Source of the DNA: Amycolatopsis sp. 2-15
GTDB lineage: Bacteria > Actinomycetota > Actinomycetes > Mycobacteriales > Pseudonocardiaceae
Direction of reading: 5' to 3'
Assembly: GCF_030285625.1 (NCBI RefSeq)
Contig: NZ_CP127294.1
Location: 506,001-570,000, forward strand
DNA: 64,000 nucleotides
In this document: positions 49,288-56,374 of the stretch, one piece after another
How the letters are laid out: every line of letters starts with the position of its first letter
How positions within the stretch are numbered: the stretch's first letter is position 1
Notes under the pieces: generated by a model
What the model saw: only the letters and a program-made list of their open reading frames with translations
Told to the model about the DNA's origin: nothing
The model's database searches: none
Made by a program: the position numbers and the translations under genes

Positions 49288-50451
49288 CTACTTCGCCAGC
49301 CTCGCCGCCGGAGAGCTCAGCCGCAGCTCGCGGACCGTCAGGCCGAGGATCGTGCAAGCCGCCGCCACGACGTAGGCGTTGCCGAGGATGGACCAGCCCA
49401 GGCCCCACCGGAGCTCGACGTCGGCGCCGTTCGGGACGAGCATGACGATGTGCGAGGCGAACAGCGCGGTGGCCGCGAGGGCCCACCAGCGGCGGCCCGT
49501 GGTGACGAGCAGGGCGATGAGCGGCACGGCCCACACCCAGTGGTGCGACCAGGAAACGGGTGACAGCAGCAGTCCGTAGAACGCCGTCACGAGCAGGGCG
49601 GCCACCGGTTCGCCGCGGCGGTGCAGGCGGATCACGAGCCACACGGCGGGCACGGCGAGGACCGCGCCGACGGCGACGGCCACGGCGAGCGACCACGGGG
49701 CCAGGGCGGAGGCGCGGTTGACGAGCCCGTTGAGCGACTGGTTGAAGATCCACGTGACCGAGCCGACGCGGCTGGGGTCGGTGGCGGACTTCGTCCAGAA
49801 GAACCACGCGTCGTGCGGGATGACGGCGAACATGATCGCCTCGAGGCCGACGAAGGTGGCCAGGGCGCGCAGGCCGTCTTTCCAGCGGCCGGTGAAGAAC
49901 AGGTGCGGCACGAAGATCAGGGGCGTCAGCTTGATGGCCGCGGCGGCGCCGATCAGCAGACCGGCCCAGCGTGAGCCGCGCAGCGAGAGCACCAGGACGT
50001 CGACGACGACGAAAGCCATCAGGATCAGGTTGATCTGGCCCAGGAACAGCGTTTTCCACACCGGTTCCAAGCCCAGCGCCACCACGGTGCCGCCGAAGAG
50101 CCACCACTGCGAGGGGCGCGCGACGACTGCGATCACCACGGTCAGTGACACCACCGACAGCACCGCGACCACGCCCCACACCAGCCCGGCCGGCACGAGG
50201 GCGAGCGGCAGGAACAGCACGGCCGCAGCGGGCGTGTAGGTGAACGGCAGCCGGACCCAGTCGGGCAGGGTCGTGAGGTCGCCGGTGGTGTAGAGCGGCT
50301 CGCCCTTGAGCAGGGTCAGCGCGCCGGCGCGGTAGACGGCGCTGTCGGCGCCGAGGTGCCGCTGGGTGAGCCAGACGACGACTCCGACGACGAGTGTGAG
50401 GAACGGCAGCGCCAGCAGACGCGGGTCAGTGAGCCGGCGTGGCGTCGGCAC
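49288..50451 (-). CDS. GT87-family polytopic membrane glycosyltransferase
   Basis: A 387-residue protein with about ten transmembrane helices and the DUF2029/GT87 features: an early extracytoplasmic loop LGADSAVYRAGALTLLKGEPLY, with the acidic residue that serves catalysis in this class, and SPVSWSHHWVWAVPL near the C-terminus. GT87 enzymes (such as PimE) transfer mannose from polyprenyl-phosphate-mannose on the periplasmic side. It overlaps the upstream paralogue by 26 bases, so the two form one operon. Acceptor unknown. Confidence 0.87.
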   Translation of the reverse strand: MPTPRRLTDPRLLALPFLTLVVGVVVWLTQRHLGADSAVYRAGALTLLKGEPLYTTGDLTTLPDWVRLPFTYTPAAAVLFLPLALVPAGLVWGVVAVLSVVSLTVVIAVVARPSQWWLFGGTVVALGLEPVWKTLFLGQINLILMAFVVVDVLVLSLRGSRWAGLLIGAAAAIKLTPLIFVPHLFFTGRWKDGLRALATFVGLEAIMFAVIPHDAWFFWTKSATDPSRVGSVTWIFNQSLNGLVNRASALAPWSLAVAVAVGAVLAVPAVWLVIRLHRRGEPVAALLVTAFYGLLLSPVSWSHHWVWAVPLIALLVTTGRRWWALAATALFASHIVMLVPNGADVELRWGLGWSILGNAYVVAAACTILGLTVRELRLSSPAARLAK

Positions 50452-51829
50452 GGTCCGCGGCCTCCCCTGAACCCGAACCAGAGCCCGAACCCGGCTCCGA
50501 ATCCGGCCCTGAACCGCGATTTCGTGCCCGCCGCTGCAGCCCCCACCGCAGGATCAACGCGATCCCCAGCACCACCGGCGTCAGGATGTACGCGTCACCC
50601 AGGACGTTCTGCCACACCTTCCAGTGCAGCTCCACATTGCGCCCGTTCGGCAGGATCAGCAGCACACAGCTGACGAACACGAACGCCACCAGCCCCGTGC
50701 CGAGCCAGCGTTTCCACGCCGTGGCGGGCGTCGTCTTCGGCAGGCGCGACACGAGCAGCACGATCAGCGGCGCGACCCACACCCAGTGGTGCGACCACGA
50801 GATCGGCGAGATCAGGAGCGTCCAGAACGCCGTGACCAGCACCGCGGCCAGCGCCTGGCCCTTGCGGTGGAAGCGCATCAGCAGCCACAGCGCCGGGATC
50901 GCGAGCAGCAGTCCGATGCCCATGGCGGCCTTCGACGCCCACGGCGCGAGGTCGGTGGCCCGGTTCATCAGCCCGTTGAGCGACTGGTTGCCCGCCCAGT
51001 GCACCGGCCCGATCCGGCCGGTGTCGGGCAGCGTCGAGGTCCAGTACTTGAACGCGTCGTGCGAGTTGATCACGAACATCAGGCCCTGCAGGACCACGAA
51101 CGTCGCGAGCCCCCGCAACGCGTCCTTGCGGCGGCCGGTGACGAACAGGTGCCCCAGGAACACCAGCGGCGTCAGCTTGATCGCCGCCGCGACGCCCACC
51201 AGCACCCCGCCCCACCGGCTGCCGCGCGCGCCGAGCACGAGCATGTCGAGCAGGATCAGCGCCATCAGGATCAGGTTGATCTGACCGAGGAAAATCGTGC
51301 GCCACACCGGTTCCAAGCCGAGGAACACGAGGAAGAACACGATCGTGGACCGCGCGGGCGAGGCCCACCACCGCGGTCCGCCCGCCTCCGGCCGCGGCAG
51401 CGCGCCGATCGAGATCCGCACCGACAGCGCGAGCGCGCCCAGCGATACAGCCGTCAGGAACCCCCACGCCACCTGCGTCGGCACGAGCGCCAGCGGCACG
51501 AAGAACAACGCGGCCGTCGGCGGGTACGTGAACGGCAACAGCGCCCAGAACGGTTCGGTGGACAGCGTGTTGGTGTCGTACAGCGAGTCCCCGTGCAGCA
51601 GGGTGAGCGCGCCACCGCGGTAGACCGCGCTGTCGACCCCCAGCCCCCACTCGTGCGTCCAGCCCCAGATCCCCATACCGATCGCGACCAGCGGGATCAC
51701 CGAGAGAATCAGGATCGACCGCGGCCGCATCGACAGCCTGGCGAGTGACTTGCGCAGGGCCAGGCGAGGCGGGGCAGCGCTCACCGGAACTTCGCCGTCG
51801 ACGGCGGAGGGAACGGTCCTGGTCACCAC
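50426..51829 (-). CDS. GT87-family polytopic membrane glycosyltransferase, extended
   Basis: A 467-residue paralogue of the preceding protein with the same loop LGVDSAVYRGGALTLLHGDSLY and SPISWSHHWVWVAPL, about ten transmembrane helices, and a Gly/Ser/Glu-rich cytoplasmic C-terminal tail (GSGSGSGEAADRAD). The N-terminus also carries a longer cytoplasmic segment. Start at GTG 51829 or 51826. Likely a polyprenyl-phosphate-sugar dependent mannosyl- or glucosyltransferase acting on envelope polymers. The two genes are a local duplication. Confidence 0.87.
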   Translation of the reverse strand: MVTRTVPSAVDGEVPVSAAPPRLALRKSLARLSMRPRSILILSVIPLVAIGMGIWGWTHEWGLGVDSAVYRGGALTLLHGDSLYDTNTLSTEPFWALLPFTYPPTAALFFVPLALVPTQVAWGFLTAVSLGALALSVRISIGALPRPEAGGPRWWASPARSTIVFFLVFLGLEPVWRTIFLGQINLILMALILLDMLVLGARGSRWGGVLVGVAAAIKLTPLVFLGHLFVTGRRKDALRGLATFVVLQGLMFVINSHDAFKYWTSTLPDTGRIGPVHWAGNQSLNGLMNRATDLAPWASKAAMGIGLLLAIPALWLLMRFHRKGQALAAVLVTAFWTLLISPISWSHHWVWVAPLIVLLVSRLPKTTPATAWKRWLGTGLVAFVFVSCVLLILPNGRNVELHWKVWQNVLGDAYILTPVVLGIALILRWGLQRRARNRGSGPDSEPGSGSGSGSGEAADRADATPAH

Positions 51830-51930: not shown

Positions 51931-52773
51931 TCAGCCCCGCGCGAGGTCGGACAGCAAATCGCACGCACTGTCGTGCGAAGCGGGCAGGCGGACCGCCGAG
52001 ACGCGCGGCCGGTTGACCTCGCGAAGCTGCGCGTCGATCGACAGCCGGTCGTTCAGGGCCCGGCGCAAGGCCACGCCTCGCGAAGCCAGCCGGCCGTCCC
52101 GGCGGCACAGCACCGCGACCACCGACGGCCCCAACGACGCGTGGCTCTCGCCGGTGTCGAAGACCGCGCGCAACGCGTCGGCCACCAAGATCATCCCCGT
52201 GAGCCGGGGCCAGCCGGACACCGTGGTCAGGTCCATCGCCACCACCAGCAGCACGTGCTCTTCCGCGGCGCTCGCCCGGTAGACCTCGGCCAGCCGCGTC
52301 CGCAGGTAAGCCGCGGAAGGCAATCCGGTCAACGGATCCGTCACCTCGGTGTGCACCAGCTGATCCGTCGCCACGTCCGCCCAAGCCAGCGCCGTCACGC
52401 GCAGTAACCGCGCAGGTGTCGCGTCGACGTCCGGTGAGACGAAACCGTCGACCGCGTCCGGGTCGGCGAGCACGGCGTGCAGCGCCGCCAGGTCGGACAG
52501 CGTCTCCGCGAGGTTCGCGCCGGCGGCGGCCCGGGCGCGGCCGAGGCCGGCCAGCGCCGTCTCGGCGCCCGTCGCGCCGTGGCGGACCACGGCGGCGCAC
52601 ACGGCGTCCACTTCGGGCAGTGCCCAGTCGCTGGGGAAGCGCCACCCCGCGGTGAGACTGGCGGTGCGCCATCTGGCCCGCAGGGCGCGCAGGTTCCGAT
52701 CCCGGTCGAACCGGGTGCGGGACTCCGGCTCGCCGGCGGGACCGGACAGTGCCCCAGTCGCCGGTACGTCCAC
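51931..52773 (-). CDS. Degenerate GGDEF-domain protein
   Basis: A 280-residue cytoplasmic protein. A helical region (about 20-140) is followed by DPLTGLPSAAYLRTRLAEV, the canonical start of a GGDEF fold, and AMDLTTVSGWPRLTGMILVADALRAVF. The GGDEF signature itself is replaced by SVVAVLCRR, so cyclic-di-GMP synthesis is not expected. It could bind nucleotide or act in signalling. GTG 52773 (VDVPATG) follows GGAAGGAG, nine bases upstream. It is divergent from the sigma factor gene, about 266 bases away, with no clear gene between. Confidence 0.65.
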   Translation of the reverse strand: MDVPATGALSGPAGEPESRTRFDRDRNLRALRARWRTASLTAGWRFPSDWALPEVDAVCAAVVRHGATGAETALAGLGRARAAAGANLAETLSDLAALHAVLADPDAVDGFVSPDVDATPARLLRVTALAWADVATDQLVHTEVTDPLTGLPSAAYLRTRLAEVYRASAAEEHVLLVVAMDLTTVSGWPRLTGMILVADALRAVFDTGESHASLGPSVVAVLCRRDGRLASRGVALRRALNDRLSIDAQLREVNRPRVSAVRLPASHDSACDLLSDLARG

Positions 52774-53039
52774 TGGCCGCCGCTCCTTCCCGGTCGATGT
52801 CGATCTTGTCCTGCTCCACTCAGGGGACGTGACACCGCCGTCCGCGTGACGGCGTTCCGGGGTCTTTTTCGCAGGACCGCCGCAGCGACACACCCGAGGC
52901 CCGGGTGAACTTGTTGCGCCGACGGAGTCAACACGCCGACCACGAGGTGACGCGTATCGCCGCGTCCGTCACACTTGTGCTCGCGTTAGAGAGGTAGATC
53001 GTGGCTGGCCAGGCCGCGTGTGCCAGATGAAGGAGCCCT

Positions 53040-55298
53040 GTGTCCACCGTTCCCGCCGATCTGTCCGGTAAGAGCGACGCCGAGCTGATCGCCGAGGTCC
53101 GCTCAGGGAACATCGCCAGCTACGGGCCCCTTTACGAACGGCACAGCGGCGCCGCCCACAACCTCGCTCGCCAGCTCGCGCGGTCGAGCTCCGAGGCCGA
53201 CGACCTCGTGTCCGAAGCGTTCTCGAAGGTCCTCGAGACGCTGCGCGGCGGCAAAGGTCCGGACACCGCGTTCCGCGCGTACCTCCTCACCGCACTGCGC
53301 CACACCGCGTACGACAAGACCCGCCGCGACCGCCGCGTCGACCTCAACGAGGACATGAGCGACGCCGGCGGCGCCATCGGCGAGGCACTCACCGTGCCGT
53401 TCTCCGACACCGCCGTGGCCGGGCTCGAGCGCACGCTGGCCGCGAAGGCGTTCGCGCGGCTGCCGGAACGCTGGCAGGCCGTGCTGTGGCACACCGAGAT
53501 CGAGCAGCAGAGCCCGGCCGAGGTCGCGCCGCTGCTGGGCCTGACCGCCAACGGCGTGTCCGCCCTCGCCTACCGCGCCCGCGAGGGCCTGCGCCAGGCG
53601 TACCTGCAGGTCCACCTGCAGGAAACCGCCGCCGAACGCTGTCACGCCACGGCCGAGCGGCTCGGCGCGTGGACGCGCGACGGACTGTCCAAACGCGAGC
53701 GGGCCCAGGTGGAGAGCCACCTCGACGAGTGCGAGGACTGCCGCGGCCTGGCCGCCGAGCTCGCCGACGTCAACGGTGGCCTGCGCGCGATCATCGCCCC
53801 GATCGTGCTGGGCGGCGCCGCGCTGGGTTACCTCGCGACGATCGGCGCCGCGAAGGCGGGAGCGGCCACGGCGGGTGCCGCCGTCGGTGCCGGCGCTGCC
53901 GCGGCGGGCGGCGCCAAGGCCGGCGCCGCGGCCGCCGCTTCCGCGCCCCGGCAGTTCGTGGGCGTCGCGGCTTCGGGCGCCGCCATCGTGGCGGCGGTGG
54001 CGGTCGCACTGGCCGCGGCCGGCTCACCGCAGGAGATCCCCGTGGCCGCGCAGGTCCCGCCGCCGGCCGCCGCGCCCGCGGTGCCGCCGCCGGCCAAGCC
54101 CGCGCCGCCCGCACCGCCGGCCCCACCCGCACCTCCGCAGGCGCCGCCGCCCGCGGTCCCCGCGCCCCCACCCGTCCAGCCGCCGCCCGCCGCGCCACCT
54201 GCGGCTCCGCCTCCGCCGGCGACACCCGCGGCGGCGAAGATGTCGGCGACCACTCCTTCGGGTGACCTCGAACTCCAGCCCGGCGCCGGGCCCGTAAACC
54301 TGCCGATCACGGTCCGCAACGACGGCGGCAGCCCGTCCGATCCCGTCCAGGTCGCGTTGAACCTGCCGCCCGGTGTGTCCGCCGTGCCCGCGGGTGGCGG
54401 CGGCGGTGCCGTGAGCGGGTTTTCGCGCCAGGCCGACACGCCGGCGACGACCCAGCTCAGCGTCGACTGCCCCGGCGGCACCGGCACCGTGACGTGCAAA
54501 ACGGGCTCCGGCCTGCAGCCTGGCCAGACGGCCGTGCTCACCTTCCGCCTGCAAGCCGACGACTCCGCGCAGGGCGGCACCGTCACGGGTTCGGTCACGG
54601 CGGGCGCGACGATCAAGGTCGCCGTGAGCGTGAAGGTCACGGTGAAGTCGCCGCCCGACCTGCTCGCGCTGCAGGCCGACACCGACGGGCTCTCGGCGTT
54701 CCCGTGGACGCGCAACCCGCTCGTCTACGTCCGCGTCCGCAACACCGGCGACACCACGAAGCCGGTCACGGTCACGTTCGACCACTCGCTGTACCAGTCG
54801 TGGAGCCTCAGCAGTTTCCCGTGCGACTCCACCGACACGGGCGCCACGTGCACCACGCGCGGCGCGCTCGCGCCGGGCCAGCACGTGAACCTGTGGGTGC
54901 GGCTCAAGGGCCGCCCGGCGCACAACGCGGCCGTGACCGTGACCGCGACGCTCGGCAAGGCGGCGCAGCAAGCCAAGGTGTCGTTCGGCTGCTGGCTCGG
55001 GATCTGCGACGTGCCGTACCCGACGACCGGAGTCCCGCCGACGCCGTCTTCTTCCTCGACGACGACCTCGGAAACCCCCGAATCGTCCAGCTTGTCGAAG
55101 AAGCCGCCGCACCGGAAGCCGACGCCGTCGAGCACCCCGCCGGCGAAGCCGACGGACCCGGTCACCACCACCTCGCCGAGCAGTCCGGCGACCACCACGA
55201 GCGCGCCCCCGACACCGGGAAGCGGCAACTCCGGCAAACCCGGCGAGACCCCGCCGTCGATCGAGCCCCGCGGCTTTTTCGACTGGTTGAGGGGGTAG
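53040..55298 (+). CDS. ECF-type sigma factor fused to zinc finger, membrane helices and extracellular domain
   Basis: A 752-residue chain. Residues about 12-95 are sigma region 2 (YGPLYERHSGAAHNLARQLARSSSEADDLVSEAF) and 132-190 sigma region 4 (LPERWQAVLWHTEIEQQSPAEVAPLLGLTANGVSALAYRAREGLRQ). A zinc-finger motif H227-C231-C234 follows, as in anti-sigma factors. Hydrophobic segments at 252-270 and 305-328, an Ala/Pro-rich stalk (330-400), two beta-rich repeats with cysteine pairs (402-660) and a Ser/Thr/Pro tail complete it. The design is a membrane-bound sigma sensing the envelope. The sigma, zinc-finger and membrane parts are clear; the mechanism is inferred. GTG 53040 follows GAAGGAG. Confidence 0.9.
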   Translation: MSTVPADLSGKSDAELIAEVRSGNIASYGPLYERHSGAAHNLARQLARSSSEADDLVSEAFSKVLETLRGGKGPDTAFRAYLLTALRHTAYDKTRRDRRVDLNEDMSDAGGAIGEALTVPFSDTAVAGLERTLAAKAFARLPERWQAVLWHTEIEQQSPAEVAPLLGLTANGVSALAYRAREGLRQAYLQVHLQETAAERCHATAERLGAWTRDGLSKRERAQVESHLDECEDCRGLAAELADVNGGLRAIIAPIVLGGAALGYLATIGAAKAGAATAGAAVGAGAAAAGGAKAGAAAAASAPRQFVGVAASGAAIVAAVAVALAAAGSPQEIPVAAQVPPPAAAPAVPPPAKPAPPAPPAPPAPPQAPPPAVPAPPPVQPPPAAPPAAPPPPATPAAAKMSATTPSGDLELQPGAGPVNLPITVRNDGGSPSDPVQVALNLPPGVSAVPAGGGGGAVSGFSRQADTPATTQLSVDCPGGTGTVTCKTGSGLQPGQTAVLTFRLQADDSAQGGTVTGSVTAGATIKVAVSVKVTVKSPPDLLALQADTDGLSAFPWTRNPLVYVRVRNTGDTTKPVTVTFDHSLYQSWSLSSFPCDSTDTGATCTTRGALAPGQHVNLWVRLKGRPAHNAAVTVTATLGKAAQQAKVSFGCWLGICDVPYPTTGVPPTPSSSSTTTSETPESSSLSKKPPHRKPTPSSTPPAKPTDPVTTTSPSSPATTTSAPPTPGSGNSGKPGETPPSIEPRGFFDWLRG

Positions 55299-55308
55299 CG
55301 TCGCCCAG

Positions 55309-55812
55309 GTGCGAGGGTTCCTGGCGAAGCACCGCGAGCTGCTGCGGTTCGCCGTGGTCGGCGGGATCAGCTTCCTGATCACCACGGCGATCACGTATGT
55401 CCTGAAGTTCACCGTGCTGCGGGCCAACCCCGTCACGGCGCTCATCATCGGCGTGCTGATCGCCACGATCTTCTCCTACGTCGCCAACCGCGAGTGGTCC
55501 TTCCGCACCCGCGGTGGCCGCGAGCGCACCCACGAGGCCGCGCTGTTCTTCCTCATCAGCGGCGTCGCGCTGGGGCTCAACGCGTTGCCGCAGTGGATCT
55601 CGCGCTACGTGCTCGACCTGCAGCAGCCGCACCTCACGCTGCTCGGGCAGGAAGTCGCCGACTTCGTGAGCGGCATGATCCTCGGGACGCTGCTCGGCAC
55701 GCTGTTCCGCTGGTGGGCGTTCAAGAAGTGGGTGTTCCCCACGGAGGGTGCCCGCCTGCGTGCGGTCCGGTCATCGGACGATGCGGACATTTCCGACCGG
55801 AAGGCCGCCTGA
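55309..55812 (+). CDS. GtrA-family membrane protein
   Basis: A 167-residue protein with four transmembrane helices of the GtrA/DPMS type (LLRFAVVGGISFLITTAITYVLKF; NREWSFRTRGGRERTHEAALFFLISG; WWAFKKWVFP). GtrA proteins help flip or position polyprenyl-phosphate sugars for envelope glycosylation. GTG 55309 lies 10 bases after the sigma factor gene, so it is probably co-transcribed with it. It is a close paralogue of the next gene. The position corresponds to mycobacterial Rv3277. Confidence 0.9.
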   Translation: MRGFLAKHRELLRFAVVGGISFLITTAITYVLKFTVLRANPVTALIIGVLIATIFSYVANREWSFRTRGGRERTHEAALFFLISGVALGLNALPQWISRYVLDLQQPHLTLLGQEVADFVSGMILGTLLGTLFRWWAFKKWVFPTEGARLRAVRSSDDADISDRKAA

Positions 55813-55849
55813 GACCCGCGGTGACCTCGGGTTCTCTAAACTGGCGGGC

Positions 55850-56374
55850 GTGACCGTTGTCGAGACCGTGCTGGCCCGCACGCCGGAGCCACTGCGCTCG
55901 GTGCTCATCAAGCACCGGGAGATGCTGAAGTTCGCGATCGTCGGCGGCACGACCTTCGTGGTCGACAACGGCATCTGGTACCTGCTCAAGCTCAGCGTCC
56001 TCGAGTCGAAGCCGACGACCGCGAAGGCCATCGCCATCATCGTGGCCACGATCGTGTCGTACGTGCTCAACCGCGAGTGGTCCTTCCGCACCCGGGGCGG
56101 GCGCGGAACGACCCACGAGGCCGCGTTGTTCTTCGCGATCAGCGGTGTGGCCGTGGTGGTGAACCTGATCCCGCTCTACGTCTCGCGATACGTGCTGCAC
56201 CTCGAAGAGCCCTTCGTCTCGAGGTTCGTGCAGGAGATCGCCGACTTCGCGACCGGCTCGATCATCGGCATGCTGCTGGCGATGGTGTTCCGGTACTGGG
56301 GTTTCAAGAAGTGGGTCTTCCCGGCCGAGCTGGGCGAACGTCGACGTGAGCAGGTCACGCGCTTGCCGCGGTAA
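55850..56374 (+). CDS. GtrA-family membrane protein, second copy
   Basis: A 174-residue paralogue with four helices and the shared signatures REMLKFAIVGGTTFVVDNGIWYLLKL, NREWSFRTRGGRGTTHEAALFF and YWGFKKWVFP. GTG 55850 is 37 bases after the first copy. The two copies differ mainly at their termini. Tandem duplication next to the sigma factor fusion suggests the pair is part of one envelope-related operon. Which polyprenyl sugar it handles is unknown. Confidence 0.9.
   Translation: MTVVETVLARTPEPLRSVLIKHREMLKFAIVGGTTFVVDNGIWYLLKLSVLESKPTTAKAIAIIVATIVSYVLNREWSFRTRGGRGTTHEAALFFAISGVAVVVNLIPLYVSRYVLHLEEPFVSRFVQEIADFATGSIIGMLLAMVFRYWGFKKWVFPAELGERRREQVTRLPR

Follow-up and report, generated by a model that had tools for sequence, protein, structure and literature searches.

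Within a 64,000-nucleotide stretch of the Amycolatopsis sp. 2-15 genome (contig NZ_CP127294.1, positions 506,001 to 570,000; hereafter the window, with positions counted from its first letter), a gene at 53040-55298 on the forward strand encodes an extracytoplasmic function (ECF) sigma factor that carries in the same chain an anti-sigma-like zinc finger, two hydrophobic segments, a proline-rich stalk and a pair of domains predicted to adopt an immunoglobulin (Ig)-like fold. We consider it probable that this protein acts as a single-chain envelope sensor: the sigma module would be inhibited by the protein's own zinc domain, the Ig-like pair would lie outside the cell, release would occur by proteolysis and the gene's own operon would be the target. 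The one-chain class as such is already known and is rare in actinobacteria; the Ig-like ectodomain and the locus look new as far as our searches reached.

The gene is one frame of 752 amino acids with a GTG start, for which an earlier note on this DNA, made from its letters alone, gave the right frame, coordinates and length. A scan of genome contigs for close relatives yielded 70 loci, all from Pseudonocardiaceae and 52 of them from Amycolatopsis; the loci closest to the window protein are from this genus, with identities that reach 93% across the matched segment. In 52 of the 70 loci the ECF gene is a single frame of 684-798 amino acids, which rules out that the sigma and C-terminal parts were fused by an assembly error, the refutation envisaged in the earlier note. 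These 52 full-length loci and the window form the 53 rows on which conservation was counted, and because so many close Amycolatopsis species are included the counts are not independent events. The other 18 loci consist of nine N-terminal pieces truncated where the contig stops (L013, L016, L023, L029, L032, L039, L041, L053 and L062), four C-terminal pieces (L073-L076), a 774-amino-acid relative outside the 53-row counts (L077), a protein with a different ectodomain (L047), one that ends after the finger (L070), a degraded copy (L078) and one with a stop after 263 codons and the C-terminal stretch further on (L048). All 13 contig cuts fall between about residues 262 and 400, which are Ala/Gly and Pro/Ala stretches. 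For L028, L057, L066 and L067 translation was begun at a non-start codon, and the N-terminal residues given for them may be wrong. Of 120 genomes sampled from the family, 107 (42/46 genera) contain a relative of residues 1-248 with an E-value of 1e-30 or lower, in a search that scored at most 22 candidates per genome. In a phylum sample of 119 genomes, 4 do so at E 1e-25, the window's own genome included; the latter is a single contig of 10.05 Mb in which sigma region 2 is matched 76 times.

Sigma region 2 (residues 31-99; 53130..53336, forward strand, as are all parts of this gene) matches Pfam Sigma70_r2 with 48.2 bits against a cut-off of 24. Region 4 (residues 136-187; 53445..53600) is matched by Sigma70_r4_2 at residues 136-182 with 21.8 bits, below the cut-off of 25.7, and the NCBIfam model sigma70-ECF spans residues 31-187 above its cut-off. 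The protein thus has the two regions that the earlier note had read in it, in the ECF arrangement of regions 2 and 4 without 1 and 3. The mean fraction of the majority residue over the 53 rows is 0.91 in region 2 and 0.97 in region 4, and since relatives also occur in most sampled genomes of the family, the ECF gene is not a chance frame. The zinc finger (residues 201-235; 53640..53744) matches Pfam zf-HC2 with 34.9 bits (cut-off 22.2), and the H-x3-C-x2-C motif of the earlier note is real: H227-x3-C231-x2-C234 is the Hx3Cx2C motif of class-I anti-sigma factors, with C201 as the fourth ligand, and all four ligands are invariant (53/53). In class-I anti-sigma factors this motif belongs to a separate protein, whereas here it is fused to the sigma factor; about 65% of the full-length class-I proteins are predicted to be membrane-bound (PMC7406223). 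Conservation of the finger (0.89) and of the helix after it (0.90) is nearly that of region 2.

Two hydrophobic segments follow the finger, residues 248-266 (53781..53837; Kyte-Doolittle 1.75) and residues 306-327 (53955..54020; 2.36 at 306-324); that both should cross the membrane is disfavoured by the charges. The loop between them carries on average 2.34 K/R and 0.09 D/E, compared with 0.17 K/R in the 18 residues after the second segment (53 rows), and this distribution favours the second segment as the sole span and an ectodomain on the outer side. The first segment, in which R249 is invariant and which is followed by K/R in the loop, is probably no full membrane span: its conservation equals that of the finger (0.89) and exceeds that of the second segment (0.78), so that it may be an interface or prolong the last helix of the finger, and not simply anchor the chain. 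If both segments spanned, the Cys-containing domains would face the cytoplasm, and the Pro-rich and Ig-like parts would there read an internal signal. We give very little credence to this topology, even though 51 of the 53 rows have two segments with a Kyte-Doolittle value above 1.6. In addition to the loop charges, the Ig fold with its two invariant Cys pairs suits an oxidising outside, and only one segment exceeds that value in L018, L068 and several relatives at greater distance. A single span by the second segment and an extracytoplasmic ectodomain are hence what the hydropathy and charge pattern favours.

The Pro-rich stalk noticed earlier occupies residues 335-400 (54042..54239), with 49% Pro and 31% Ala over residues 330-400, and its length varies from 58 to 105 residues between fixed alignment columns in the 53 rows. 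Beyond it, in a structure prediction such as the earlier note had called for, AlphaFold models residues 402-662 as tandem Ig-like sandwiches with a mean predicted local distance difference test (pLDDT) score of 90.1, comprising domain 1 (residues 402-537; 54243..54650) with the pair C477/C486 and domain 2 (residues 538-650; 54651..54989) with the pair C595/C604. Both pairs are invariant (53/53), and comparison of the two domains by hhalign (probability 98.3%, E 2.6e-14, Cys pairs aligned) identifies them as duplicates, in agreement with the two Cys-containing beta-rich repeats first read from the letters. A further Cys pair is less strictly kept, C651 in 47 and C656 in 49 of the 53 rows. The chain ends in a Ser/Thr/Pro-rich tail (residues 663-752; 55026..55295), with 45% Ser+Thr and 26% Pro over residues 661-740, which is the least conserved part measured (0.46). 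Profile matches of the ectodomain at E 0.05 were obtained to DUF11 (42/53 rows), NPCBM_assoc (NEW3; 42/53) and CARDB (16/53), families with which the domains share the Ig-like fold through weak matches: among the bit scores of nine rows (the window, L018 and seven more) one lies above its cut-off, DUF11 in L011 with 24.9 against 24.6, and the best E-values suggest that some other rows also pass. Integrin-type matches of the ectodomain represent fold likeness only. A sequence search for solved relatives of the ectodomain returned one match, to Anti-Parallel Protein 10 at E 0.069, which was not used.

The idea of the earlier note that a two-protein system has been fused into one envelope sensor agrees with the class-I-like zinc motif, the one good anchor and the predicted Cys-paired ectodomain, but the fusion itself has already been described, for ECF48, ECF52, ECF53 and Pseudomonas IutY (PMC8999054). 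In ECF52, represented by SCO4117 of Streptomyces coelicolor, the sigma factor is followed by a zinc finger, a membrane region, a Pro-rich region and a carbohydrate-binding module (PMC5826349, PMC8999054), and according to PMC5826349 Pinto and Mascher had earlier proposed fusion, brake and proteolytic release for this group. The window protein shares with SCO4117 sigma regions 2 and 4, the zinc finger, a membrane region (by hydropathy and charge), a long Pro-rich C-terminal extension, an extracytoplasmic C-terminal domain and an actinobacterial host. Its best relatives in two Streptomyces-like genomes (L087 and L088) have the same layout with 46-48% identity over residues 1-248; they end in an NPCBM domain (95.7 and 95.6 bits, Pfam) and have a TetR gene beside them, recognised by Pfam for L087 and by eye for L088, and thus match SCO4117, the ECF52 protein next to atrA. 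Such a relative occurs in 24 of 26 genomes of the Streptomyces-like genus at 43-50% identity, with NPCBM tested by Pfam in two of them. Hence, where the earlier note had suggested an ECF53-like protein, the fused architecture is indeed known, but the nearest group tested is ECF52, and ECF53 was compared by description only.

This closeness makes it possible, if on balance doubtful, that the window protein is an ordinary member of ECF52 (or ECF53) with the kind of ectodomain variation that those groups allow, as some of their members carry glycosyl hydrolase or carbohydrate-binding domains (PMC10766802): the order of parts is the same, and the relatives that show the identity just given are recognised by their NPCBM domain and TetR neighbour. 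The ectodomain and surroundings argue otherwise, since SCO4117 has an NPCBM domain where the window protein has two Cys-paired Ig-like domains, Pfam searches up to E 1 found neither NPCBM nor another carbohydrate-binding module in the window protein, and the TetR neighbour (atrA in S. coelicolor, PMC5826349) contrasts with GtrA and GT87 genes in the window. Two Ig-like domains are present in 53/53 orthologs and in none of 24 ECF52-type proteins, one of which (L106) ends after the finger. A quick tree of 62 rows, from which L112 was left out, likewise sets the window protein apart, with 30 Pseudonocardiaceae rows on one side of a branch (Shimodaira-Hasegawa-like approximate likelihood ratio test, SH-aLRT, 91) and 23 ECF52-type rows on another (77); neither value reaches the tool's starred level, and long branches make the deeper joins unsure. 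ECF53 and ECF48, compared by description, resemble the window protein in their C-terminal zinc domain with one or two membrane helices and in their occurrence in Actinobacteria (PMC8999054), and at a guess the relatives of the second tier that the Streptomyces-like genus contains, with 29-36% identity, may be of this kind. IutY of Pseudomonas putida (ECF243) also joins sigma and membrane anti-sigma parts in one chain and is activated by Prc and RseP proteolysis (PMC8999054), whereas it serves Gram-negative siderophore surface signalling with a different sensor. Literature searches found no sigma factor described with an Ig-like or DUF11 ectodomain and no account of this GtrA-linked branch, which is weak evidence of absence.

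The sensor gene adjoins a conserved set of envelope-related genes. Downstream on the forward strand lie two genes for GtrA membrane proteins (55309..55812, Pfam PF04138, 77.2 bits against a cut-off of 26.1; and 55748..56374, 86.8 bits, given as the longest frame, with the true start probably further in), the first of which starts 10 nt past the ECF stop, just as the earlier note had counted. All 52 full-length loci have a same-strand GtrA relative no more than 3 kb downstream, and 21 of them have a start codon at exactly this distance of 10 nt; over all 70 loci the figure is 58, or 58 of the 61 with downstream DNA, the 12 without it being the nine that end in the sigma gene plus L047, L070 and L078. 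Divergently, on the reverse strand, stand a gene with a degenerate GGDEF-like domain (51931..52893; weak Pfam GGDEF match, E 0.17) and two GT87 glycosyltransferase genes (50426..51829, PF09594, 156.2 bits; and 49288..50451, PF09594, 148.4 bits), giving the layout GT87, GT87, GGDEF-like divergent from ecf-GtrA-GtrA. GT87 transferases occur on the divergent side in 60/70 loci and the GGDEF-like relative in 62/70, with four of the eight exceptions having no upstream gene. The GGDEF-like gene keeps a DPLTGLP-like start, and no GGDEF signature was seen in the copies readable among 18 chosen (rows L014, L068 and L011, in the wrong frame, were not counted); from this, together with its frequency beside the sigma gene, its product is possibly a non-enzymatic partner. 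GT87 includes PimE. In published work PimE acts in mycobacterial mannoside synthesis and GtrA proteins are predicted to serve polyprenyl-linked sugars as flippases or helpers, on account of which we infer that a lipomannan-type output of the locus would be reasonable.

Within the 146-bp region between the divergent genes we found a two-box element, GTGAC-N13-TC-N-GTCACACT (52947..52975, forward strand). Among 66 upstream regions (65 loci and the window; L073-L076 and L078 were left out), GTGAC-N16-GTCAC is present within 300 bp upstream in 58, always with a spacing of 16 when 15-17 was allowed (58/58), and the exact pattern is missing from eight. The T of the inner TC is kept in 58 and the C in 57 regions, ACT follows in 58/58, and the extra invariant bases are on the right box only. 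The element is most readily taken for a promoter whose boxes are unusual, either of the ECF type (self-regulation) or housekeeping-like (GTGACG, 17 bp, CACACT); a dyad operator is a further candidate. Exact matches to the shorter pattern GTGAC-N15-17-GTCACAC number six in the genome, compared with one for the control. Five of these lie elsewhere than in the window, and for second copies of the sensor (L150-L155) neither a GtrA nor a GT87 relative reaches E 1e-5 within the 5.7 kb covered, observations that would fit a general envelope or redox stress sensor with its regulon elsewhere and with GtrA/GT87 not as the main target. We regard this as unlikely, although a serious contender, given the GtrA linkage in every full-length locus and its retention in 7 of the 9 distant relatives that rank as the best match of their genome.

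The single-chain sensor that we prefer would then work as follows. The protein's own zinc-containing domain would hold the sigma module inactive at the membrane, where the second hydrophobic segment would anchor the chain, and the Pro/Ala stalk would carry the two disulfide-closed Ig-like domains towards the cell wall. There the Ig pair may read a change of the envelope, most likely in a glycan built from polyprenol-phosphate sugars (lipomannan-like); cleavage outside followed by intramembrane proteolysis would free the sigma module. From the shared two-box region the latter would transcribe the operon of its own gene and the GtrA genes, and perhaps also the divergent GGDEF-like gene and the two GT87 genes. 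Several observations weigh against this scheme. M50 proteases are present in all 14 control genomes too, and their presence therefore says little. The DUF11 and NEW3 matches are weak, that of the window protein to NPCBM_assoc is sub-threshold, and no evidence for a ligand comes from them. The full two-box pattern has one exact genome match, the window site itself, and with up to two mismatches 15 matches compared with 9 for the backwards control; the genome search showed no clear regulon, the genes beside the five other shorter-pattern sites not having been looked at. Ectodomain-free relatives (L070, L164 and L085) exist, from which it follows that the sigma-plus-finger unit can occur without such a part. 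Finally, an AlphaFold model of residues 1-335 (pLDDT 51), of too low a quality for this purpose, shows no docking between finger and sigma module. This last point, like the fact that zinc motifs of membrane anti-sigma factors may be structural (PMC7406223), leaves room for a permanent tether, in which the sigma module initiates transcription while still bound to the membrane and the zinc domain serves as a structural spacer instead of a brake. We judge such a tether improbable: truncated SCO4117, without finger, membrane region and binding module, leads to raised expression of its own gene (PMC5826349), and a mere spacer sits poorly with a finger and following helix nearly as conserved as sigma region 2.

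Pseudonocardiaceae are known for their antibiotic producers, and should the link to GT87 and GtrA be true, the family would gain a named regulator of envelope glycans. The locus is also a clean test case: a conserved output gene adjoins the sensor, a conserved element lies upstream, and natural variants differ mainly in the ectodomain. In order to survey this variation, 20 further family relatives were chosen for lower identity or odd length, and hence not at random. With our own domain profiles, no Ig-like domain was found in three of them, one in eight, two in five, three pieces in one and five or six pieces in three, the last corresponding to about four domains by their Cys pairs. Nine of the 20 (L156-L163 and L168), with the four-domain forms among them, are their genome's best match, and since GtrA is close by in seven of these nine, the number of ectodomains seems to vary even within the GtrA-linked branch. 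The second copies L150-L155 have one Ig domain. We tentatively propose, at somewhat less than even confidence, that Pseudonocardiaceae possess modular one-chain self-inhibited sensors with swapped or multiplied ectodomains (none, one, two or about four Ig-like, or SH3-like), of which the GtrA-linked branch would be a family-wide regulator of a lipomannan-type glycan via GT87/GtrA with its own fixed promoter element.

Individual relatives show further variants. In L159, L160 and L163 (1103-1145 amino acids) the same chassis bears about four Ig-like domains, and L159 and L163 are followed downstream by two GtrA matches. L157 and L158 have three hydrophobic segments, no Ig-like domain and, in the alignment, a His where the other proteins have the first zinc Cys. 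A second copy in Amycolatopsis vastitatis (L047:5001-6293) retains the sigma, finger and anchor parts without the usual neighbours and represents an ectodomain swap; its SH3-like end scores 15.3 bits with SH3_3, below the cut-off of 27, and the readable end of the degraded second copy in Amycolatopsis rubida (L078) resembles it by eye. The window's own genome encodes two more sigma-plus-finger fusions, one of 565 amino acids with a long low-complexity tail (L084:2335-4032, reverse strand) and one of 261 amino acids with no membrane segment by eye and apparently soluble (L085:2438-3223, reverse strand). In a Streptomyces-like genome, the end of the second-tier relative L115 looks by eye like a ricin-type sugar-binding domain.

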